Origin: Mayamaea pseudoterrestris
Lineage: Eukaryota > Bacillariophyta > Bacillariophyceae > Sellaphorales > Sellaphoraceae
Length of the DNA: 64,000 nt
NCBI GenBank assembly: GCA_027923505.1
Contig: BROI01000010.1
Span: forward strand, 744,001 to 808,000
Direction of reading: 5' to 3'
How positions within the stretch are numbered: position 1 is the first letter of the stretch; each line of letters starts with the position of its first letter. A program made the position numbers and the translations under genes. Shown here piece by piece: positions 2,806 to 63,306 of this stretch. The notes under the pieces are model-generated. The model had not been told where the DNA came from. It ran no database searches and saw only the letters and a program-made list of their open reading frames with translations.

Positions 2806-5800
2806 ATGAAGGATGGCGAGGAGAAGACGTCCGCTCCGCAAGCGAGCGTTCGCGATGTCTTTTCGTTTGCCAAAACCCGTCGTATTCGTCTCTGCATTGC
2901 TGGATCTTTTACAGCAGCCTGTGTATCAGGTGCATGTCTTCCAGCGATTGCCTTTTACTTTGCCAAAGCTTTTATGGATTTGGCACGATCAACGTCGAGC
3001 GATGTATTTTTGAGCTCGGTCCGAAGCATTGCCTTCGTCTTTATGAGTTTGGGTGTCATCCTCATGACGTCCATGACGATTCAAGCGACCCTTCAAGAAA
3101 CGGCGGCGGCGGAAATGACAAAGGCTTTCAAGAAGAGCTGGTTTCGAGCACTCTTACGACAGGACATGGCTTACTATGACATAGAGGATGTTGCTGGGCA
3201 AGCAACCACGATTTCTTCCAATGGAAACAAATTCAAGAGTAGGTTAACCTTGCACTTGACTGCTCTGCATTCATTCATGCACCCAATCATCTTACGTTTT
3301 GTTCTATATCCTATGTCCTTTTTCTTAGAGGGCGTTGGACGCAAATTGAGCGAAGCAGTCCAGTTTACAATTACATTTTTTGGAGCCTTGGGATACGCTT
3401 TTTATGCAACTTGGCAACTTTCTCTAGCCGTTTTGGCTGCATCTCCACTATTGGCATACAGTATCTACACGGCGATTAATCTCATACCGACGGAAAAGTC
3501 ACGAGCAAATGCCTTGTACGCCAAGGCCGGAGCTGTTGTCACGCGAACCGTTTCCAATATTCGAACCATTCTTTCCTTTAACGCCGTCCAGCGGATGGTG
3601 GATGACTACGAGCAGGCTACAAAACAAGCCATGAAGGGTGCGATTTCAAACTCGTGGCTGGTCGGTTTGGCGACGGGTGCCATTTACGCCACTTCCAACA
3701 TTGCTTACATTATCGTGACTCTTCTTGGAGCATGGCTACTGTACTCTCAGGTGGAAATTGATGGGTGTGATCCGTCTGGAACAGTGGAAGGCGTCGCAGC
3801 GTGTAATCCACAGGGTATGGACATGATGGGAGCACTCATGGGAGTATCATTTGCCGCTGGAGTCTTTCCGCAAGTTTCAGTTGCCATTGAAAGCATGTCT
3901 GGAGCACGAGCTGCATGCTATCCGGCATTACTGGCTATGCGCCGAAAGCTGGCAATAGACAAATGCGAAAGTTGCCCAGACAAGGATGTGGAGAGCCAAG
4001 ACGAGGAAAGTGGCGGTGCGCACGCGAAGGGTGAAAAGATTGGAAGTAATGAATTGGACGCGAATAAAACCAACCTTGCGCATGGAAGGTTGCCGAAATA
4101 TGTAATTGATTCTTCGTCGGAAGAAGGAATCAAGTTGACGAACGTCAAGGGCGATATTCAGTTTCGGAATGTTACTTTTGCCTTTCCAACGCGCAAGGAG
4201 AGCACCGTACTGTCTGACTTTAATCTACGAGCGGAATCTGGAATGACGATAGCTATATGCGGGCAAAGCGGCTGTGGAAAGAGCAGTGCATTGTCCTTAA
4301 TCGAGCGGTTCTATGATCCCAGCAATGGGACAATGACGCTCGATGGTGTTGACCTGAGACAGTTAAATGTGCGCTGGCTGCGAGAACAAATTGGCCTCGT
4401 TCTACAGGAACCCAAGCTTTTTGCGAAATCAGTAAAAGAGAACATTGCGATAGGGTGTCCGTCGGCAACAATGCAAGAGATTGAAGAAGCTGCGCGCATG
4501 GCAAATGCTTACGACTTCATCATGTCGTTCCCAAAAGGTTTTGACACTCAAGTCGGAGACGTGGGCGCTCAACTTTCTGGGGGACAGCGACACAAGTTGG
4601 CTATTGCCAGGGTGCTTTTAAAGAAGCCGAAGGTGCTTTTGCTGGACGAAGGTACTTCCAATTTGGACTCTGCGTCTGAAGCTGCGGTGCAAGAAGCTTT
4701 GGACAAGGTGATGCGCCTGAAGAAAGTCACAACATTTGTTGTCGCCCATCGTTTATCAACGATCCGCAACGCTGAGATGATCGTAGTTATGGATCAGGGC
4801 AAGATCATTGAAACGGGCACACATGATAGTTTGCTTGCGAATGCGGGGACGTACTACAATCTTGTGCAGGCTCAGAAGACCCGACAGAATTTGGAGTCTG
4901 ATATCTTGGCCGAAGCAGTTAACCAAGCTAGCAATCCCCCCAATGTGAGCTTGATTGATACTAGTACAACAATTGACAGCGAACTCGGACGGCGCGTGGC
5001 GATTCGTTTTTCCGATGTTACGTTTAGGTATCCTGCTCGTCCCGAGGCGGAGGTGTTGCGTAACTTAAATCTGACTGTATACGAAGGCGAAACCCTTGCT
5101 TTAGTTGGAGCCAGTGGTTCAGGTAAATCTTCTATTATGCAGCTCATTGAAGGTTTCTACCGGCCGACCGCCGGCATTGTCGAGTTTTATGGTGAAGATG
5201 TGAAGAATGTCAACATGCAATGGCTTCGTGACGAGATTGGATTTGTGAGTCAAGAACCAGCATTGTTCGAAGGAACTATTGCGGACAATATCAAGTTTGG
5301 ATTTCCAAAAGCCACTGATATGGAAGTCGTCGAAGCGGCCAAACAGGCGAATTGTCACGAGTTTGTAACTGAATTTCCTCACGGGTACGAGACAATGGTA
5401 CGAGATAGTGGGACGCTATCTGTTGGACAAAAACAACGCATTGCGATCGCGCGCGCTTTGATTAAACAGCCGAAGGTCCTTCTGCTTGACGAATTCACAT
5501 CAGCACTCGACTCTCTTAGCGAAAAGGTAGTACAAGCGGCGTTAGAGAAGATCATGGCGCGCAAGGACCAAACATGCATCGTGATTGCACATCGCCTCTC
5601 AACCGTAAGGGACGCCGATCGAATTGGTGTTATTGACAATGGCACAGTCGTCGAGATTGGGACGCATGATGAGCTCATGTCGAAGCCTGAGGGTAGGTAT
5701 CGACAGCTGCAGGCCATGCAAGATCTCACTATGGGTACCTTGACTCCTTCGAGTAATACTGATAATTATGCAAAAATTCTGTCTCCTGAAGGAGCCAAGT

Positions 5801-30009: not shown

Positions 30010-30691
30010 GTTTTCCTACTGGTAGTTATTGAATAGGATAGCCGAACTGATTAACTTTATCTGTAACAAAAGATGCGAATATGGTTGCTAATCTCAACGA
30101 TGCAATCGGCGGCAGGCATTATTTTTTGTCCTCATGGTCGACGTCCCGATGGTTCTTTCATTCTCACTTTTCCTGCGGATCGACTGGCACGCGAATAGGT
30201 CATGAGGGTCACTAGTATTGTAGCCATGAAGTATAGAAGATTGCACCCTTCGATAACAGCGTAAAAGCTCGTGTAGCTCAGTTGGTTAGAGCGTGGGTCT
30301 AATAAACCCAAGGTCGCCGGTTCGATCCCGGTCTCGAGTACAATATTTTTGGATCATTGACATGAGAACGTTTACGTTCATCACAACTGCTCTTATAGCG
30401 TGTTTTTTGTGTTTTGGATGTAAAGCTACTGTAAAGATCAATGAGTTGCTGGAATGGATGCATTTCCATTGTCACATTGCAACTTTAGTCGTTGGTGCGC
30501 TGAAAGGAGAGGCATTGGCGGAACGAGCTATGCTACAGTGCTTTTGCTTCTTTTAACAGAGTATAACATTCATAGTATGCCTACATTTGAGCCTAGCTTA
30601 AGTTTACAAGCCGGTACATACGATTGCTTGACGTACCCTTGCTGCCAAAAGTCAGAATAAAGCACGGTTTATTTTGCAAGTCTTCGTCTGC
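30010..30691. other. Intergenic region containing tRNA-Ile
   Basis: About 680 bp upstream of the HA-domain gene and downstream of the gene ending at 30692. Apart from the tRNA at 30267-30340 nothing is recognised. Confidence 0.6.
30267..30340 (+). tRNA. tRNA-Ile(AAU)
   Basis: 74 nt on the plus strand. A-box TAGCTCAGTTGG and B-box GGTTCGATCCC are intact. The anticodon stem TGGGT/ACCCA encloses CTAATAA, giving anticodon AAU (read as IAU after editing). The acceptor stem pairs with one U-U mismatch at position 6-67 and a terminal G-U. No intron. Confidence 0.94.
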
Positions 30692-39044: not shown

Positions 39045-40016
39045 GTTAAAAAAGGTGTAGTGTGAAATCGAATCACTTTATGAGAAAACAGGAGCAACCT
39101 TGCTTGTTCGATGGCATTCGACCGACGCCGCGACGTGCGGCTTAACCGGTGTGACGCCCGAACCCGGCTCAGTCAAAGATATCAATGGCGTCATCATCCT
39201 TTGTCGCGGACCCATTAAAAACAGCTACAAGTACAAGCACTCGTAACATCATGCAGACACAGGAGGTTACCATGGAATCAGCTTCCGTTACATTACACAT
39301 GTATGTATCGTATTAGATGCACTTCAGTTCTTCCCAAACTTGAAGTTAAAGCCAAAAGTATGCAAAACGACATGAGCAGGATTCGAACCTACGAGGGAAA
39401 ATCCCAACAGATTTCGAGTCTGTCGCCTTAACCGCTCGGCCACCATGTCGTGAAACAAATGCCAAGCTATTAGCTATAAGAATCCACCAGGGAATTAATA
39501 ACGCGAGTGACTCGGGGTAGCCGAGAATGATTGCCGGCCTTCAAGGTGGTACAACATGTTCATCGGACTGTTCCAAAAGCACTGATGACGGCGCTGCGGG
39601 AGCGACTATAGCGCCGCATATGCTGCTGTGTTGATAGCTAACTTAGTTTATGCTTGGCTTGCGAGACTTTACAGTTATTGCATTTTGTAACTTGGAACGA
39701 GTAGTAGACTGCGGGCAGGAAATATTGCACAGGACATTGGCTATCATATTTATATTAGCCATATGATTCATGGCCTGGATGATACATGTGCTATTACTGT
39801 ACCAAAAAACCTCGTCACTTGCAGCTGTCGCAAAAGTAGTCGCACCGGTTCTAACTTCGCGTGGTTTCGGATGTTGCGTGGATCTCACTTCCACACGCGC
39901 CGACCTGCATGTACCTTCTTCCTTTCTCGAGGTACAAGTAGCTCGACTCGCTAGCCATCTATCCTCTCTTGCCTGCAGCTGTCAACTATACTGCTCAAGA
40001 TCTCTGTGATCTGATC
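39045..40016. other. Intergenic region containing tRNA-Ser
   Basis: About 970 bp between the divergent UFD1-UBX and Mrs2 genes. It contains the tRNA at 39368-39449 and a partial GTACAAGTAC-like motif near 39226-39235. Nothing else is recognised. Confidence 0.6.
39368..39449 (-). tRNA. tRNA-Ser(CGA)
   Basis: 82 nt on the minus strand. The acceptor GACATGG pairs with TCATGTC, followed by discriminator G as expected for serine. A-box TGGCCGAGCGG and B-box GGTTCGAATCC are present. The anticodon stem ACAGA/TCTGT encloses CTCGAAA, giving anticodon CGA. The class II variable arm TGGGATTTTCCC is clear. No intron. Confidence 0.96.
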
Positions 40017-57743: not shown

Positions 57744-58973
57744 TTATCCAGTGTAGCGAAGCAAGAGTCCGTTGCTGCCTAGCGCCCAACCCATGTTGCC
57801 ATACTCGGGGAAGAACTTGACGTTGTACAAGTTGCCTGGAATATCATTGGCGCTGGAATCAAATTTGAACTTTTTGCCTCCGTCAAAGCTTACGAACATG
57901 ACATTGGATCCACCAACGGCCCACACCTCATTATCCGCTCGCCAAGCAAGGTCAGTAATACCGTATCCACCCGTTTTAATGTCGGCTTCCACAAAGTCGA
58001 ACGCATCCTGCGTCAAATCAGGCGTTTCCTTGCTTATAAACACCTTACCGCCGTTCAAAGTCATCCAGAGCCCCTTGTTGATCTTGCCTTCGACGAAACC
58101 CATATTTTGGATCCGACGAGGAGTGCCACGATTGTGTGGAATCCAGAAATCCTGGCCTGGTTCCCACGTAAGGAAAAAGTTGCCGCGACTTGATACGGCC
58201 AGGTACGCACCCTTGTCATCGCGCACTTGGTTGATGATGCTTCCGGTAAAGTATGAAGCTCCACTGACACCACTACTACTGATACGATTGAGTGTAGCGT
58301 CAATAGTTTCCTTTACTTGTGCCTTCCAGTTGCGTCCCGCATTTTCGGTCACGTATACAGCTCCGCTGCTAGTGGTCATTTCCGCCTTGCTTGGACCAAG
58401 TGCGAAGATGGAGGATGGCTCACCTGGAAGCTTGGGTGAAAGGGGAATGCGCTCCCATGACTTGCCGCCATCAGCCGTGTGCAGCATGAGTGTTGGCTTG
58501 CCGAGCACCCATCCTTCATTGCCGGTGAAGGAAACAATCTGGAATCTATAAGTGATCTCTTCCTCCGCGTCAAGGTTAGAAAATGAACGAGCTTCCCATG
58601 TCTTTCCTCCGTCCGTTGTCTCGGCAAATGAGCCACGAGCACCAACAATGTATCCATGCGTGGGGCTGTTAAAATCAATGTCGTAAACAGTGTCTTCAAA
58701 CGGCAATGAAACTTGCGTCCATCGCTTCTCTGGCGCAGCTTCAACTGAAGCTGGAAGACCTCCTGTCGCTGTCGCAATGGATACTGCCGCTGCAGCAGTT
58801 GCTGAGTTGCCAATGAAGGCTCTCCTGTCTTCGACTCCGTCGTTTCTTGACATGAGGAGTTTTGACGGCAAAATGCATGTTGATGTCTTGGATGCCGATG
58901 GAATAAGGTGTCTTGGCGCAAAGGCAGTCACGCTGCCGACTGCAAGAACAAAACAAGCGCTCCTCAGATTCAT
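57744..58973 (-). CDS. HCF136: Photosystem II assembly factor HCF136/Ycf48, plastid lumen
   Basis: 409 residues, one exon, ATG 58973. The presequence has three parts: a signal peptide (RSACFVLAVGSVTAFAPRH) with the AFAP cleavage motif of complex plastids, a transit region, and a twin-arginine signal (EDRRAFIGNSATAAAAVSIA) for Tat export into the thylakoid lumen. The mature part is a seven-bladed propeller of BNR/Asp-box repeats: DGGKTWEARSFSNLD, ADGGKSWERIPLSPK, YVTENAGRNWKAQ, FDGGKKFKFDSSAND. HCF136/Ycf48 binds newly made D1 and is required for assembling the photosystem II reaction centre. The length matches Arabidopsis (403). This gene is the clearest evidence that the organism is photosynthetic. 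Confidence 0.95.
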   Translation of the reverse strand: MNLRSACFVLAVGSVTAFAPRHLIPSASKTSTCILPSKLLMSRNDGVEDRRAFIGNSATAAAAVSIATATGGLPASVEAAPEKRWTQVSLPFEDTVYDIDFNSPTHGYIVGARGSFAETTDGGKTWEARSFSNLDAEEEITYRFQIVSFTGNEGWVLGKPTLMLHTADGGKSWERIPLSPKLPGEPSSIFALGPSKAEMTTSSGAVYVTENAGRNWKAQVKETIDATLNRISSSGVSGASYFTGSIINQVRDDKGAYLAVSSRGNFFLTWEPGQDFWIPHNRGTPRRIQNMGFVEGKINKGLWMTLNGGKVFISKETPDLTQDAFDFVEADIKTGGYGITDLAWRADNEVWAVGGSNVMFVSFDGGKKFKFDSSANDIPGNLYNVKFFPEYGNMGWALGSNGLLLRYTG

Positions 58974-59286
58974 CTTGCTAGCTTTGATTAACGTACAGTA
59001 TTGTATGTAGATGCAACCAGGGCCAAAATAATGTATGTAATGATGATTCACATCACCATCGTCAGGTCCAAATCCTTGCTCTCAAAGATCGCCCACACCG
59101 ACATGGCATACACTCTGACTCACAGTCGTACGTCAGTGCGTCAGAACCGCTACGACGACTTGGAAACCACCGCGACATAATTGCCGTGCATTAATCCATC
59201 ACCATGGAAGCGTGACAATCAGCCTACTACTCCTACCGGTAACAATCATTCAATAATATCATCTGTTACGCTTGTTTTTTGAACGA
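58974..59286. other. Divergent promoter spacer
   Basis: 313 bp between the HCF136 and Dus starts. TACCGGTA lies at 59234-59241, 53 bp before the Dus ATG. No gene recognised. Confidence 0.55.
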
Positions 59287-60900
59287 ATGAGGCATGCATT
59301 GCATTCGACAAGCAAATATTTGAAGTTTGACATTGTTGGAAGAAAGCGATTACAGCGCATACTACCTTGGCCTTGGTTCACGACGGTGTCTCGCATACTA
59401 ATGCTTCAACTACTAGTTACTGTCAAGGCTTTTGCTGGACGACGGACATGCGCCGCTTCCGTGCACAGAATGTCGTTGTCGTCGATAAATCTATCGTATA
59501 CCGGTGATACTGATTTGAATATCGCTCCGAGCACTGCATACCAACGTCGAATGCGACTGCTCCAAGATTCATCGAAACTTTCACTTGCGCCCATGATGGA
59601 CTACACGGATCGACATTTCCGCTATTTAGTACGTCTCATCAGTCAAAGGACTCTTGTCTACACTGAAATGGTTGCTGCCAATGCAATTGCACACGAGCGA
59701 AGGGAAGCCATGGAAAAGAAACGGTTTGAACACCCCAATCGTCCCGAAAGTCGTAGTTCCTACGACGACCAATTTCTTCAACGATACCTTTCACAGGCAC
59801 CTTTTGGAGAAGGACCATCGGTTTTGCAGCTCGGCGGATCAAGTCCAGTACAGCTCTTTGAGTCGGCGCAAGCAGTCATGGACATGGAAGATCGAGGTTA
59901 CTGCAACTATACAGCCATAAATTTGAATTGCGGTTGTCCAAGTCCAAAAGTGGCTGGCAAGGGATCCTTTGGGGCATCTCTTATGGATGATGCCAACCTT
60001 GTGGCGCAGCTGACAAGCGCCATGTATCAGGGCTGCGACGGCCGCATGCCAATCACCGTCAAGTGCCGGATTGGGACGGAGACGCAGTCTCCCTACACGC
60101 ACCTTTCGTACGTTCAAACAGATCCAGAACAAGAGTACCGCAAGCTTGCCAACTTTATCAGAACAGTGGCACGCAACGGCGTCGTTACGGACTTTCAGGT
60201 TCATGCGCGCATTGCCGTTCTTTCAAAATCCTTCTCGCCGGCCGACAATCGGAAAGTGCCGCCACTGAAATACGATTTGGTGAGACGGCTGGTACAAGAT
60301 TTCCCAGAATTGACATTTAGCTTGAATGGCGGTATTGACAGTATCTCACAGGCGCTGAATGAGTTTCAACGTTGCCCTGGCTTGATGGGTGTCATGGTGG
60401 GGCGTGCCTTTGCTGCATCGCCCTGGAATTTTGCCATGGCCGATCAGCTGATGTATGGAGACAATGGTGCGAGCGACGAGCAACATCGACCAATGAATCG
60501 TTTGCAGATACTCGAGGCGTATGGGAAGCACGCCGACTATGAAGAGTCGATATGGGATCCTGTCAAAATTCGTCGGTTCATTGTCAAGGCTATCACGCCC
60601 TTGTTCGCGGGTGAACCAAATGCAAAGAAATACCGCATTGCTTTGGAAAGGGTAGCTGGCTCTGCCAAGGCGCTACACTTGCAAGGCAAGACTACAAACT
60701 CTCAGCCGCCACTGTCGGAACTCATATTGACGACAGCCATGGAACACTTGACGGACGAGACCTTGTTACGATCGCCTCAGGAGTCGTATGAGCGGTTGCT
60801 CTTTGAGGATGGCAAGCAACTAACGGGTATCGCCAGCTCGATGCATGCCACATCGGAGTGGCAAGACGAAAGAAAAAATATATGCAACAACTCTGATTAA
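59287..60900 (+). CDS. tRNA-dihydrouridine synthase, bacterial DusA type
   Basis: 537 residues from ATG 59287; a downstream ATG at 59401 opens MLQLLVTVKAFAGRR, a weak signal-peptide-like alternative. The DusA core is strong: LSLAPMMDYTDRHFRYLVRL, LVYTEMVAANAI, QLGGSSPVQLFESAQAV, INLNCGCPSPKVAGKGSFGA with the catalytic Cys, ITVKCRIGT, then FQVHARIAVLSKSFSPADNR, LTFSLNGGIDSISQALN and GVMVGRAF. DusA reduces U20/U20a in tRNA D-loops with FMN and NADPH. The closest pattern is the bacterial/organellar DusA rather than eukaryotic Dus1-4, suggesting action in the plastid or mitochondrion; the basic hydrophobic N-terminal extension fits. Tail-to-tail with the thioredoxin reductase. Confidence 0.9.
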   Translation: MRHALHSTSKYLKFDIVGRKRLQRILPWPWFTTVSRILMLQLLVTVKAFAGRRTCAASVHRMSLSSINLSYTGDTDLNIAPSTAYQRRMRLLQDSSKLSLAPMMDYTDRHFRYLVRLISQRTLVYTEMVAANAIAHERREAMEKKRFEHPNRPESRSSYDDQFLQRYLSQAPFGEGPSVLQLGGSSPVQLFESAQAVMDMEDRGYCNYTAINLNCGCPSPKVAGKGSFGASLMDDANLVAQLTSAMYQGCDGRMPITVKCRIGTETQSPYTHLSYVQTDPEQEYRKLANFIRTVARNGVVTDFQVHARIAVLSKSFSPADNRKVPPLKYDLVRRLVQDFPELTFSLNGGIDSISQALNEFQRCPGLMGVMVGRAFAASPWNFAMADQLMYGDNGASDEQHRPMNRLQILEAYGKHADYEESIWDPVKIRRFIVKAITPLFAGEPNAKKYRIALERVAGSAKALHLQGKTTNSQPPLSELILTTAMEHLTDETLLRSPQESYERLLFEDGKQLTGIASSMHATSEWQDERKNICNNSD

Positions 60901-61036
60901 ATGCTACAATTGAGTCTAACAAAGATGGAGATCGGTCATAATATTTATCGAACATCAGGCTTAGTTCCCACGAAACTTTACCGTCATTCTCGACAAAACC
61001 ACGTCATCTTGCTTCAATTTATCAATATGACAAGAG

Positions 61037-61096
61037 AGCCCTTCGAGGTCCAAACGTGCTTCCTAAAGGATGCAGCGCTTTGCGCCTCGAAGGGCT
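61037..61096 (-). promoter_or_regulatory. Perfect 12-bp hairpin at the end of the selenoprotein ORF
   Basis: AGCCCTTCGAGG at 61037-61048 is the exact reverse complement of CCTCGAAGGGCT at 61085-61096. In the transcript (minus strand) the stem starts at the last base of the UAA and encloses 36 nt that can form an inner TGCATCC...GGAAGCA hairpin. Position suggests a role in UGA decoding or 3' UTR structure. The canonical SECIS AUGA quartet is not inside it. It may be only a stable 3' UTR hairpin. Confidence 0.55.
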
Positions 61097-63306
61097 TAGC
61101 CTCAGCATCCTCCGGCGGCAGCGTCTTCGCCCCCGCTTTTTGTGATCGCCAGAGTAACAATCTCCTCGGCGCTGGTTGGATGAATACCGACAGTATCTAC
61201 TAACGTTTTGTAAGATAAACCATTTTTCATTGCTGCACCAAAGCCTTGCATAACTTCTCCAGCGTTTGGGCCAACATAATGAATACCTAGAACCTTTTCA
61301 TCTGGTGTCTTGTCAACAACAGCCTTACAAAACGCCGTATTATGACTCCGGCTCGCGGAAAGAGACCACTCAAGAGGCTGAAACTCGCGATGGTATACTT
61401 CAATATTTGATTCGCCGAACTGTGCAATGGCATCTTCCTCTGAGATACCCACACAAGCGTACTCGATCGGAGTAAAGACCGTCGTGCAGATATTCACATA
61501 ATCCATCGGTTCCTTGGATCCGCCAAAGAGACGTCGTGCCAAAGCAACGCCTGCTTGAATCGCAACAGGAGTTAGCTCCGGTGTATTCTGTGTTAATGAT
61601 AGGTAAGGTGAGAATTGGACGGTTGACAGCACTGAATGCGGACGCTCCACGTACATCAAGCACATCGCCCACGGCGTATATGTTTGGACAGGATGATTGT
61701 TCAAGCTTGCCAACAACTTTTCTGTTTTTCGGATTCGTTACAACGCCAGTGTTTTCAAGCCCCAACTTGGCAGTGTCGGCAGTACGGCCAACGGCTACCA
61801 ACACGGTATTGTACGTGTCGATAGAACCATCCGACAAGGTTGCTTTAATTAGGCCGTCCGCCTCCTTTTCCAACTTTAAAACAGTAACCTCTCGCTTGAA
61901 CTTGACGCCATGATTGCTCATGTACGTATCGATACGGTCGGCGCATTCTCTATCAAACCCACGCAATAAAATACTTCGAACGGCCACAGTGACATCCAGT
62001 CCAAGACCAGCCAAGAATCCAGCACACTCCAGACTGATGTAAGAGGCACCGACGCATAGAGTCTTTCCAGGGCTCTCTTCTAAAGAAAAAACATCGTCAG
62101 ACGAAATAGCAAGCTCGCCGCCTTCACATTCCAAAGGGGATGGGCGGCCACCAGTCGCAATCAAAAAGCGCGATGATGTGATAGTAGTCGTCTGCCCCTT
62201 GCGATCCGTCGCTTCAATGGTATGCGGATCAATGAATTTCGCAAGCTTGTTTAGATAAGTAACATTCTTTTCTCGCAGCCGCACTCTATATTTAAAGTTA
62301 AGTCCACGTATGTAGTTTTGTATATTTTCGCGTACAATTGACCACGCCACGCGCGTCTTGATTTCATTGTTTCCGTCATGGTCGCCACCTGTCTCGGCTC
62401 CAAACATGATCCCATACCCGGGCATGTCGGCATGTATTGATTCTCTGAGAAGTGCGCCGGCATGAAGAAGCTTCTTTGGGATGCACCCTGCAGGAGGAAA
62501 ACAAAATGTGAGTGGTAGTTGTGCAGTGTCAAGCAGCAACACCTCCAACGTACCAACATTAACGCAGGTACCACCCAAGCCCCAAGTGGTCCCATGTGGA
62601 CTGGGTCGCACAAAGTCCAAGCAAGCCACCTTGGCGCCTAGCGCAGCCGCCTCCTTTGACGCTGCCATGCCACCCGAGCCGCCTCCTATGACGACGAAGT
62701 CATAGTCGTAATTATGGTTTGGCGCGTGTCCATCGTCGACCATTGTAGCCGTCACTTCTTTTTCCTTGTCGGATGGAGCAAGAAAGGTTCGACACCAGTC
62801 GCTGTAAAGTGCAAGTGAAAAGTAGCCAGAGAGCCAATCAGTCAGTCAGCAGTCAGATGCCATGCGACGGACCGGTTCATCCTACTAAACTTACAGAGTA
62901 TCATCATGCCCACCAAGGAAGGAGTGAATCTCGTCCTTGACAAGGCCGTCGCTCTCCGACTTTGTAAACCAGCACATTGGTGATGTTGAATGTGTCTGCG
63001 CCAACGGATCGGTAAAGCATGTCCGAAAGCCATCATCACCAAGCAGCCAGGCTCGATACGTCGCTCGATCCTCAAAGGTATGCGGAATCACCTTGATACG
63101 ATGCGGAAATAAGATGGCAACGGATCGAAGAACGCTCACGGCCCTTGTGAAGAACCCACCTGCGACTCAGCGAAACGTGGATGAGTAAAAGGTCGAGCGT
63201 TTTGGTAAGAAGGCAAGTAGCCTTGACGCTCCGTTGCATTCAAATTTTAAATCTACTTACAGCTGTCATAGCCTGCTACATGGAGAACCTTTCGAGGGCC
63301 CGCCAT
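61096..63306 (-). CDS. Selenocysteine thioredoxin reductase with an N-terminal thioredoxin-fold domain
   Basis: Five exons: 63261-63306, 62895-63159, 62554-62801, 61655-62487, 61096-61587; introns 101, 93, 66 and 67 nt (donors GTAAGT, GTAAGT, GTACGT, GTACGT). All phases agree and give 627 residues if the TGA at 61102-61104 is read as selenocysteine. The end reads GGA TGC TGA GGC TAA, i.e. Gly-Cys-Sec-Gly-stop, the C-terminal redox centre of animal-type thioredoxin reductases. The N-terminal 110 residues are thioredoxin/glutaredoxin-like with a CGFF site (GYDSCGFFTRAVSVLRSVA), as in thioredoxin-glutathione reductases. The reductase core has FAD motif VVIGGGSGGMAASKEAA, disulfide CVNVGC, NADPH region and PELTPVAIQAGVALARRLFG, then the interface domain. 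It reduces thioredoxin (and perhaps glutathione) with NADPH, in the cytosol since no presequence is seen. Confidence 0.93.
61102..61104 (-). other. UGA selenocysteine codon
   Basis: In-frame TGA between TGC and GGC, two codons before a TAA. The context Gly-Cys-Sec-Gly at the extreme C-terminus of a thioredoxin reductase is the classical place for Sec. If read as stop, the protein would end in Gly-Cys and lose the selenenylsulfide centre. Confidence 0.9.

Follow-up and report, generated by a model that had tools for sequence, protein, structure and literature searches.

An in-frame UGA in the C-terminal codons of a high-Mr thioredoxin reductase gene of the diatom Mayamaea pseudoterrestris, and candidate signals for its recoding as selenocysteine

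Thioredoxin reductases (TrxR) that contain selenocysteine (Sec) have been described in several photosynthetic protists, including Chlamydomonas, whose enzyme ends GCUG (PMC9404770), Emiliania huxleyi, where EhSEP1 is a Sec-TrxR (PMC6254913), and the diatom Thalassiosira pseudonana, whose TR was one of 16 predicted selenoproteins found through a SECIS search in 2007 (PMC2375036). According to the cited survey, TXNRD in algae occurs mainly in the Sec form and is among the most widely distributed selenoproteins (PMC7539508). Since a Sec-TrxR has been in print for a diatom since 2007, going by the text of that report, the enzyme type is already known. For comparison with the features described below, thioredoxin-glutathione reductase (TGR) carries a recognisable glutaredoxin (Grx) domain with CxxC or CxxS (PMC3316567), and the selenocysteine redefinition element (SRE) of SELENON is described as a stem-loop adjacent 3' of the UGA (PMC8704476).

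The gene reported here lies in a 64,000-nt stretch of the M. pseudoterrestris genome (GCA_027923505.1, contig BROI01000010.1), hereafter the window. With the algal enzymes named above it shares its origin in a photosynthetic protist and, in our reading, a Sec residue. At a probability of about 0.9, we read it as a nuclear gene for a high-Mr TrxR whose UGA is decoded by tRNA-Sec(UCA) as Sec under the direction of a divergent SECIS, perhaps with help from a hairpin. The unusual parts are the recoding signals and an unclassified front domain, set on a known enzyme type; no description of such a hairpin, or of a SECIS without apical AA, in a diatom TrxR was recognised in the literature searched. 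The reductase itself is possibly already in a database for its species.

The reductase gene and its C-terminus

On the minus strand, five exons between 63306 and 61096 join in phase to 1884 nt in a single frame of 628 codons, as the sequence-only reading of this DNA had proposed. The product has 627 residues (~68 kDa from length). The terminal codons are GGA TGC TGA GGC TAA, and the TGA at 61102-61104, located exactly where it had been claimed, is codon 626 and the only in-frame internal stop; the genome search likewise reads the last exon with one TGA inside.

63306-63261, minus: exon 1, from the start codon (63306-63304) through DS of GYDSC; ACCATGG start context, GT donor at 63260
63159-62895, minus: exon 2, most of the unclassified N-terminal domain (C16-G-F-F, ..TSP.., ..FLGGHDDT..)
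62801-62554, minus: exon 3, linker, FAD-binding GGGSGG and start of the CVNVGC redox centre
62487-61655, minus: exon 4, remainder of CVNVGC and NADPH domain
61587-61096, minus: exon 5, dimerisation domain, C-terminal GCUG and UAA stop
61104-61102, minus: UGA read as Sec 626, between TGC and GGC TAA

Introns 1-4 measure 101, 93, 66 and 67 nt, and all four chosen are GT-AG. Several alternative ends can be drawn for intron 4; 61654-61588 (GTACGT..CACAG) is preferred because the joined exons then give DVLDNTPELTPVAIQAG, which can be aligned with TrxR chains. The exon joins are predictions based on splice sites and homology. The N-terminus as drawn, at the first ATG (63306, in ACCATGG), is a putative start, because an in-frame ATG exists further upstream (MSLEARHEG...). 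GGATGCTGAGGCTAA has a single occurrence in the 30.6-Mb genome assembly (41 contigs), and the GC content is 47-50% in each of 16 window segments.

The reductase part, a high-Mr thioredoxin reductase with the ending Gly-Cys-UGA-Gly-stop, comprises residues 135-627. It spans TIGR01438 completely (485 positions; 629.6 bits, cut-off 475.85), and Pfam recognises an FAD/NADPH pyridine-nucleotide disulfide reductase (PF07992, 3e-55) with its dimerisation domain (PF02852, 1e-26). The best match in the PDB is rat TrxR1 (1h6v; E 8.7e-158), with CVNVGC aligned; as anticipated for TXNRD-type proteins, the alignment includes the final four residues, Cys being entered at the position of the Sec. Because TIGR01438 is fully covered and the 1h6v alignment reaches the last four residues, the reductase reading is not a chance one. 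Two displayed PDB TrxR chains end GCCG, where we take the Cys to be a stand-in for Sec, and some other TrxR rows end at residue 619-620. The protein thus resembles mammalian TXNRD1 in its 56% identity to 1h6v, CVNVGC, a C-terminal GC[U/C]G and a penultimate (predicted) Sec, whereas it differs in an extra N-terminal domain of ~130 residues and in that no canonical SECIS was found.

By analogy with the family, electrons would pass from NADPH through FAD to the CVNVGC disulfide, then to the C-terminal Cys-Sec pair (GCUG), and finally to thioredoxin and other substrates. A gene caller that treats the UGA as a stop truncates the reductase, and the second active site is lost.

The unclassified N-terminal domain

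Residues 1-134 form an extra domain ahead of the reductase part, and as sequence this domain is real. It had been proposed as a fused redox domain that makes the enzyme TGR-like; the extra domain of ~130 residues stands, and its redox nature found no Pfam or PDB match and only a weak alignment with glutaredoxins. For residues 1-134, Pfam gave nothing above cut-off (two chance matches, E 0.19 and 0.2), and at E <= 10 no Pfam redox family was matched on the domain, in a search whose HMMER filters drop most weak matches. The PDB sequences offered nothing convincing (one match, E 0.37), and in a six-frame protein search of the genome (17 rows) the region was found nowhere else at E 0.1. When the domain was aligned by hhalign with six glutaredoxin stretches of the same genome, C16 fell on the catalytic Cys, at the weak probability of 3.8%; the score was reached by 3 of 200 shuffles, and by 137 of 200 in global mode. 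An AlphaFold2 model of exon 2 alone (87 residues) had a mean pLDDT of 44 and was not used. By eye, the pattern is what we take to be that of glutaredoxin, namely a strand, a helix with C16-G-F-F, TSP before a strand, and FLGGHDDT before the last helix; we also presume a resemblance to the N-terminus of animal MDH1B. A glutaredoxin-like fold is therefore only suggested, and the domain is possibly glutaredoxin-like.

The likeness to TGR consists in a TrxR with an extra N-terminal domain and a GCUG-type end, and in the presence of TGR chains among the PDB matches. In contrast to TGR, there is no Grx match, the candidate site reads CGFF, and the first ~100 residues of PDB TGR are unaligned. Alignment of the PDB TGR chains starts no earlier than their residue ~103 (2x8c_A 103-598 with reductase 132-627), which leaves their Grx part unmatched. 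The TGR name of TIGR01438 does not argue for a Grx domain, since the model matched residues 135-627 only. The label 'TGR-like', as applied to this predicted protein, is unproven.

The full protein gave no matches in the viral and genome contig collections. A search with alignment A1 returned 26 loci from viral contigs and the best 80 of 577 from genome contigs. Among the 106 matches listed, none of the seven C-termini read had a GC[U/C]G ending, and few of the matches extend into the N-terminal region; among the remaining 99, some viral-collection rows reach residue 626 in the alignment, with 27-28% identity.

Selenocysteine machinery and other genes with an in-frame UGA

The machinery search covered tRNA-Sec, SepSecS and SelD/SPS. 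Two tRNA-Sec genes score above the Rfam cut-off (67.8 and 62.7 bits), which was passed in 5 of 14 control genomes, and ARAGORN assigns the anticodon TCA to both. SelD/SPS (206.2 bits; cut-off 125) and SepSecS (2 rows) were found as well, so two of the components named beforehand, tRNA-Sec and SelD, are in the genome together with SepSecS. A tRNA-Sec(UCA) of this kind would read the UGA of the reductase mRNA as Sec. Within the window, the tRNA-Ser(CGA) at 39367-39450 (minus) is a third, sub-threshold match to the tRNA-Sec model (over 39369-39449); further tRNA genes lie at 2524-2609 and 30267-30341.

On other contigs, six more genes contain an in-frame UGA (L017, L018, L020, L021, L022 and L027). 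They encode SelT (CMG-U; UGA in one of five Rdx rows), two glutathione peroxidases, GPxA and GPxB (NVASK-U-GKT and NAACL-U-GKT; UGA in two of three rows), SPS (LKG-U-ACK), a SelU-like protein (RRCG-U), whose paralogue in L023 has Cys there, and an AhpC-TSA_2 protein (LRSLG-U); the UGA forms of the last two make up 2 of 7 rows. These UGA sites, which were also read against relatives, we take to be the Sec positions of their families. MsrA is represented by 10 rows, and L034, the one examined, is a Cys form. Judged from score and spacing, two loci 11 kb apart (C1:1882953-1883603 and C1:1894367-1895017) look like duplicates; each holds a tandem pair of Rdx (SelW/SelT-like) stretches, none with a UGA.

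Candidate recoding signals downstream of the UGA

Three features follow the UGA on the reductase strand.

61096-61037, minus: stem-loop, candidate SRE-like element (from fold energy and inverted repeat)
60995-60946, minus: candidate SECIS, helix I UGUCGAG/UUCGAUA, stem II GGU..AGUUUC/GGAACU..GCC, small loop without AA
60989-60983, minus: GAATGAC in the reductase 3' UTR, the 7-mer common to seven genes

The expectation of a SECIS in the 3' UTR was answered in part: a stem with a GAATGAC core was found at 60995-60946, and neither Rfam SECIS_1 nor a canonical pattern was matched. SECIS_1 gave no match at the reductase gene, at the six other genes or genome-wide (133 candidates scored). In a canonical scan of 61110-58600 (NTGA, 9-14 nt stem, AA/CC, NGA), the best candidate (23.0, at 58744) lies in the neighbouring HCF136-like gene and was rejected; the best in the first 1500 nt scored 17.0, and 30 shuffles of 1500 nt gave a mean best of 20.7 and a maximum of 28.5. 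Three matches to Rfam families in 60000-62000 (E <= 10) were rejected as well, all being far below gathering scores; the one to mir-2059 is merely the post-UGA hairpin.

Because Rfam SECIS_1 and the canonical scan gave nothing, the 3' UTRs of the seven selenoprotein genes were compared by counting all 7-mers in the first 260 nt past the stop codon. GAATGAC, which includes AUGA, the SECIS 5' core, is the sole 7-mer common to all seven, and it is still the sole one in 6/6 when the reductase gene is omitted; in 200 shuffled sets no 7-mer occurred in more than four of seven. Within the same 260 nt, the motif was present in 0/28 other genes of the genome, for which the stop was taken as the next in-frame one after the match (possibly intronic) and which include a few near-duplicates, and in 0/5 window genes. 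It was also absent within 600 nt in four of four Cys-type genes. The background frequency is ~1 per 9.5 kb (both strands, overlapping loci counted in). Counted from the first stop base, the motif starts at 46-53 in five genes, at 109 in the reductase and at 206 in AhpC-TSA_2.

Decoding of the UGA at 61102-61104 as Sec, the central proposal of the sequence-only reading, is well supported by the TrxR-type C-terminus, tRNA-Sec, SelD and SepSecS, the six other UGA genes and the shared SECIS-core motif, and the second-last residue is almost certainly selenocysteine. If the UGA were a true stop, the protein would end ...GGC and be a degenerate reductase lacking the second redox residue. In favour of this, UGA is a stop by default, SECIS_1 is absent and the proposed SECIS folds with modest energy. 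Against it, precisely one Gly codon and then a stop come after this UGA, which matches animal TrxR; in each of the six other genes a UGA occupies the Sec position, and the shared motif occurs in the reductase 3' UTR. Together these make a true stop very improbable.

The candidate SECIS at 60995-60946 would direct the recoding. Its putative quartet, AUGAC (60987-60983) opposite UGAU (60957-60954), lies between the two helices; the quartet was imposed as a constraint, and the unconstrained fold gives the same helices. With this constraint, a quartet with opposing GA can be drawn in 7/7 selenoprotein genes. The distance from AUGA to GA is 30 nt in the reductase and in SelU, 45 in SelT, 52 in SPS and 55 in GPxA. 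The fold energy of the reductase element was matched by 8 of 200 mononucleotide shuffles and is thus modestly better than shuffles; none of 200 was as good for SelT, GPxA and SPS, and the weaker folds of SelU, AhpC-TSA_2 and GPxB were equalled by 20, 26 and 35, respectively. On the crude energy of the SECIS-like fold, two of the window's 15 GAATGAC sites, those at 4241 (+) and 55220 (-), surpass the reductase site, which comes third.

The AAR motif is named as a conserved SECIS feature in the cited review (PMC8704476). No apical AA/CC was found in the reductase element, whose best-fold loop is GUG, with AA only in an internal loop. As read from the folds, four elements (SelT, GPxA, SPS and AhpC-TSA_2) have AA in or beside the loop, and the other three (reductase, SelU and GPxB) do not. 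The genome pattern GAATGACGG-N14..34-GCCYGA occurs at 4 places, against 1 for a reversed-pattern control; two of them are the reductase and SelU, and no selenoprotein frame was recognised at the other two. Because the pattern was designed from the reductase and SelU, it is not independent evidence, and when the two 3' UTRs were compared without gaps, the result was equalled by 37 of 300 shuffles. The reductase candidate is accordingly non-canonical: the quartet and helices can be drawn, without apical AA/CC and without an Rfam match.

The lack of AA and the short span (30 nt from AUGA to GA) of this element would also fit a recoded UGA served by another SECIS. Such a SECIS could lie further downstream or overlap the convergent gene, or it could arise when the 3' UTR is spliced; an intron GTAAAG..TTAG that would split the 60995-60946 element can be drawn by eye. 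We consider this decidedly unlikely, given that the SelU element has equal dimensions, that the shared GAATGAC falls in 60995-60946, and that ~2.5 kb scanned downstream held no site above the shuffle range. The element at 60995-60946 probably acts as the SECIS.

The hairpin at 61096-61037 lies close behind the Sec UGA; its first paired base, the final A of UAA, is base 6 past the UGA. Twelve unbroken pairs form its base, and the 18-nt arms are 89% complementary. The fold energy of the first 70 nt past the UGA is -36.8 kcal/mol (z -5.0), and 0/300 dinucleotide shuffles were as stable. In the five other selenoprotein genes folded (all except SPS), no comparable hairpin followed the UGA (z -1.42 to +1.42). 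Known SREs begin ~6 nt after the UGA, and a stable stem-loop at this place fits a candidate SRE that, abutting UGA and UAA, perhaps assists recoding. It is like the SELENON SRE in lying directly 3' of the UGA and unlike it in lying past the true stop codon except for one base. The gene is convergent with a neighbour, a tRNA-dihydrouridine-synthase-like gene (59272-60900, plus; named from reading the sequence). The two stop codons are 195 nt apart, and the transcripts may therefore overlap in antisense at their 3' UTRs. Given this arrangement, and with no such hairpin in the five other genes, there is somewhat less than an even chance that the structure serves the end or stability of an mRNA between convergent genes, although the first pair 6 nt past the UGA, near the known start of SREs, and the location on the sense strand of the reductase mRNA speak against it; that role would concern the hairpin only and is compatible with Sec decoding.

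The seven genes share a SECIS core that the Rfam model misses. If some of them work without apical AA, as the folds of the reductase, SelU and GPxB suggest, the minimal definition of a SECIS would need revising, and so would automatic selenoprotein counts in such algae. A wider proposal, which we rate as rather unlikely, combines a divergent, compact SECIS class used by this lineage (GAAUGAC core, some members without apical AA) and missed by standard models, a strong stop-fused hairpin that offsets a weak reductase SECIS, and a one-chain reductase that evolved independently, its diverged CxxF glutaredoxin-like module marking a second origin of the TGR-like design.

Beyond the convergent gene, at 57744-59051 (minus), lies a gene for an HCF136/Ycf48-like photosystem II assembly factor precursor, with TAFAP after a signal-peptide-like start; the gene is named from reading the sequence, and we take this motif to point to a complex plastid.
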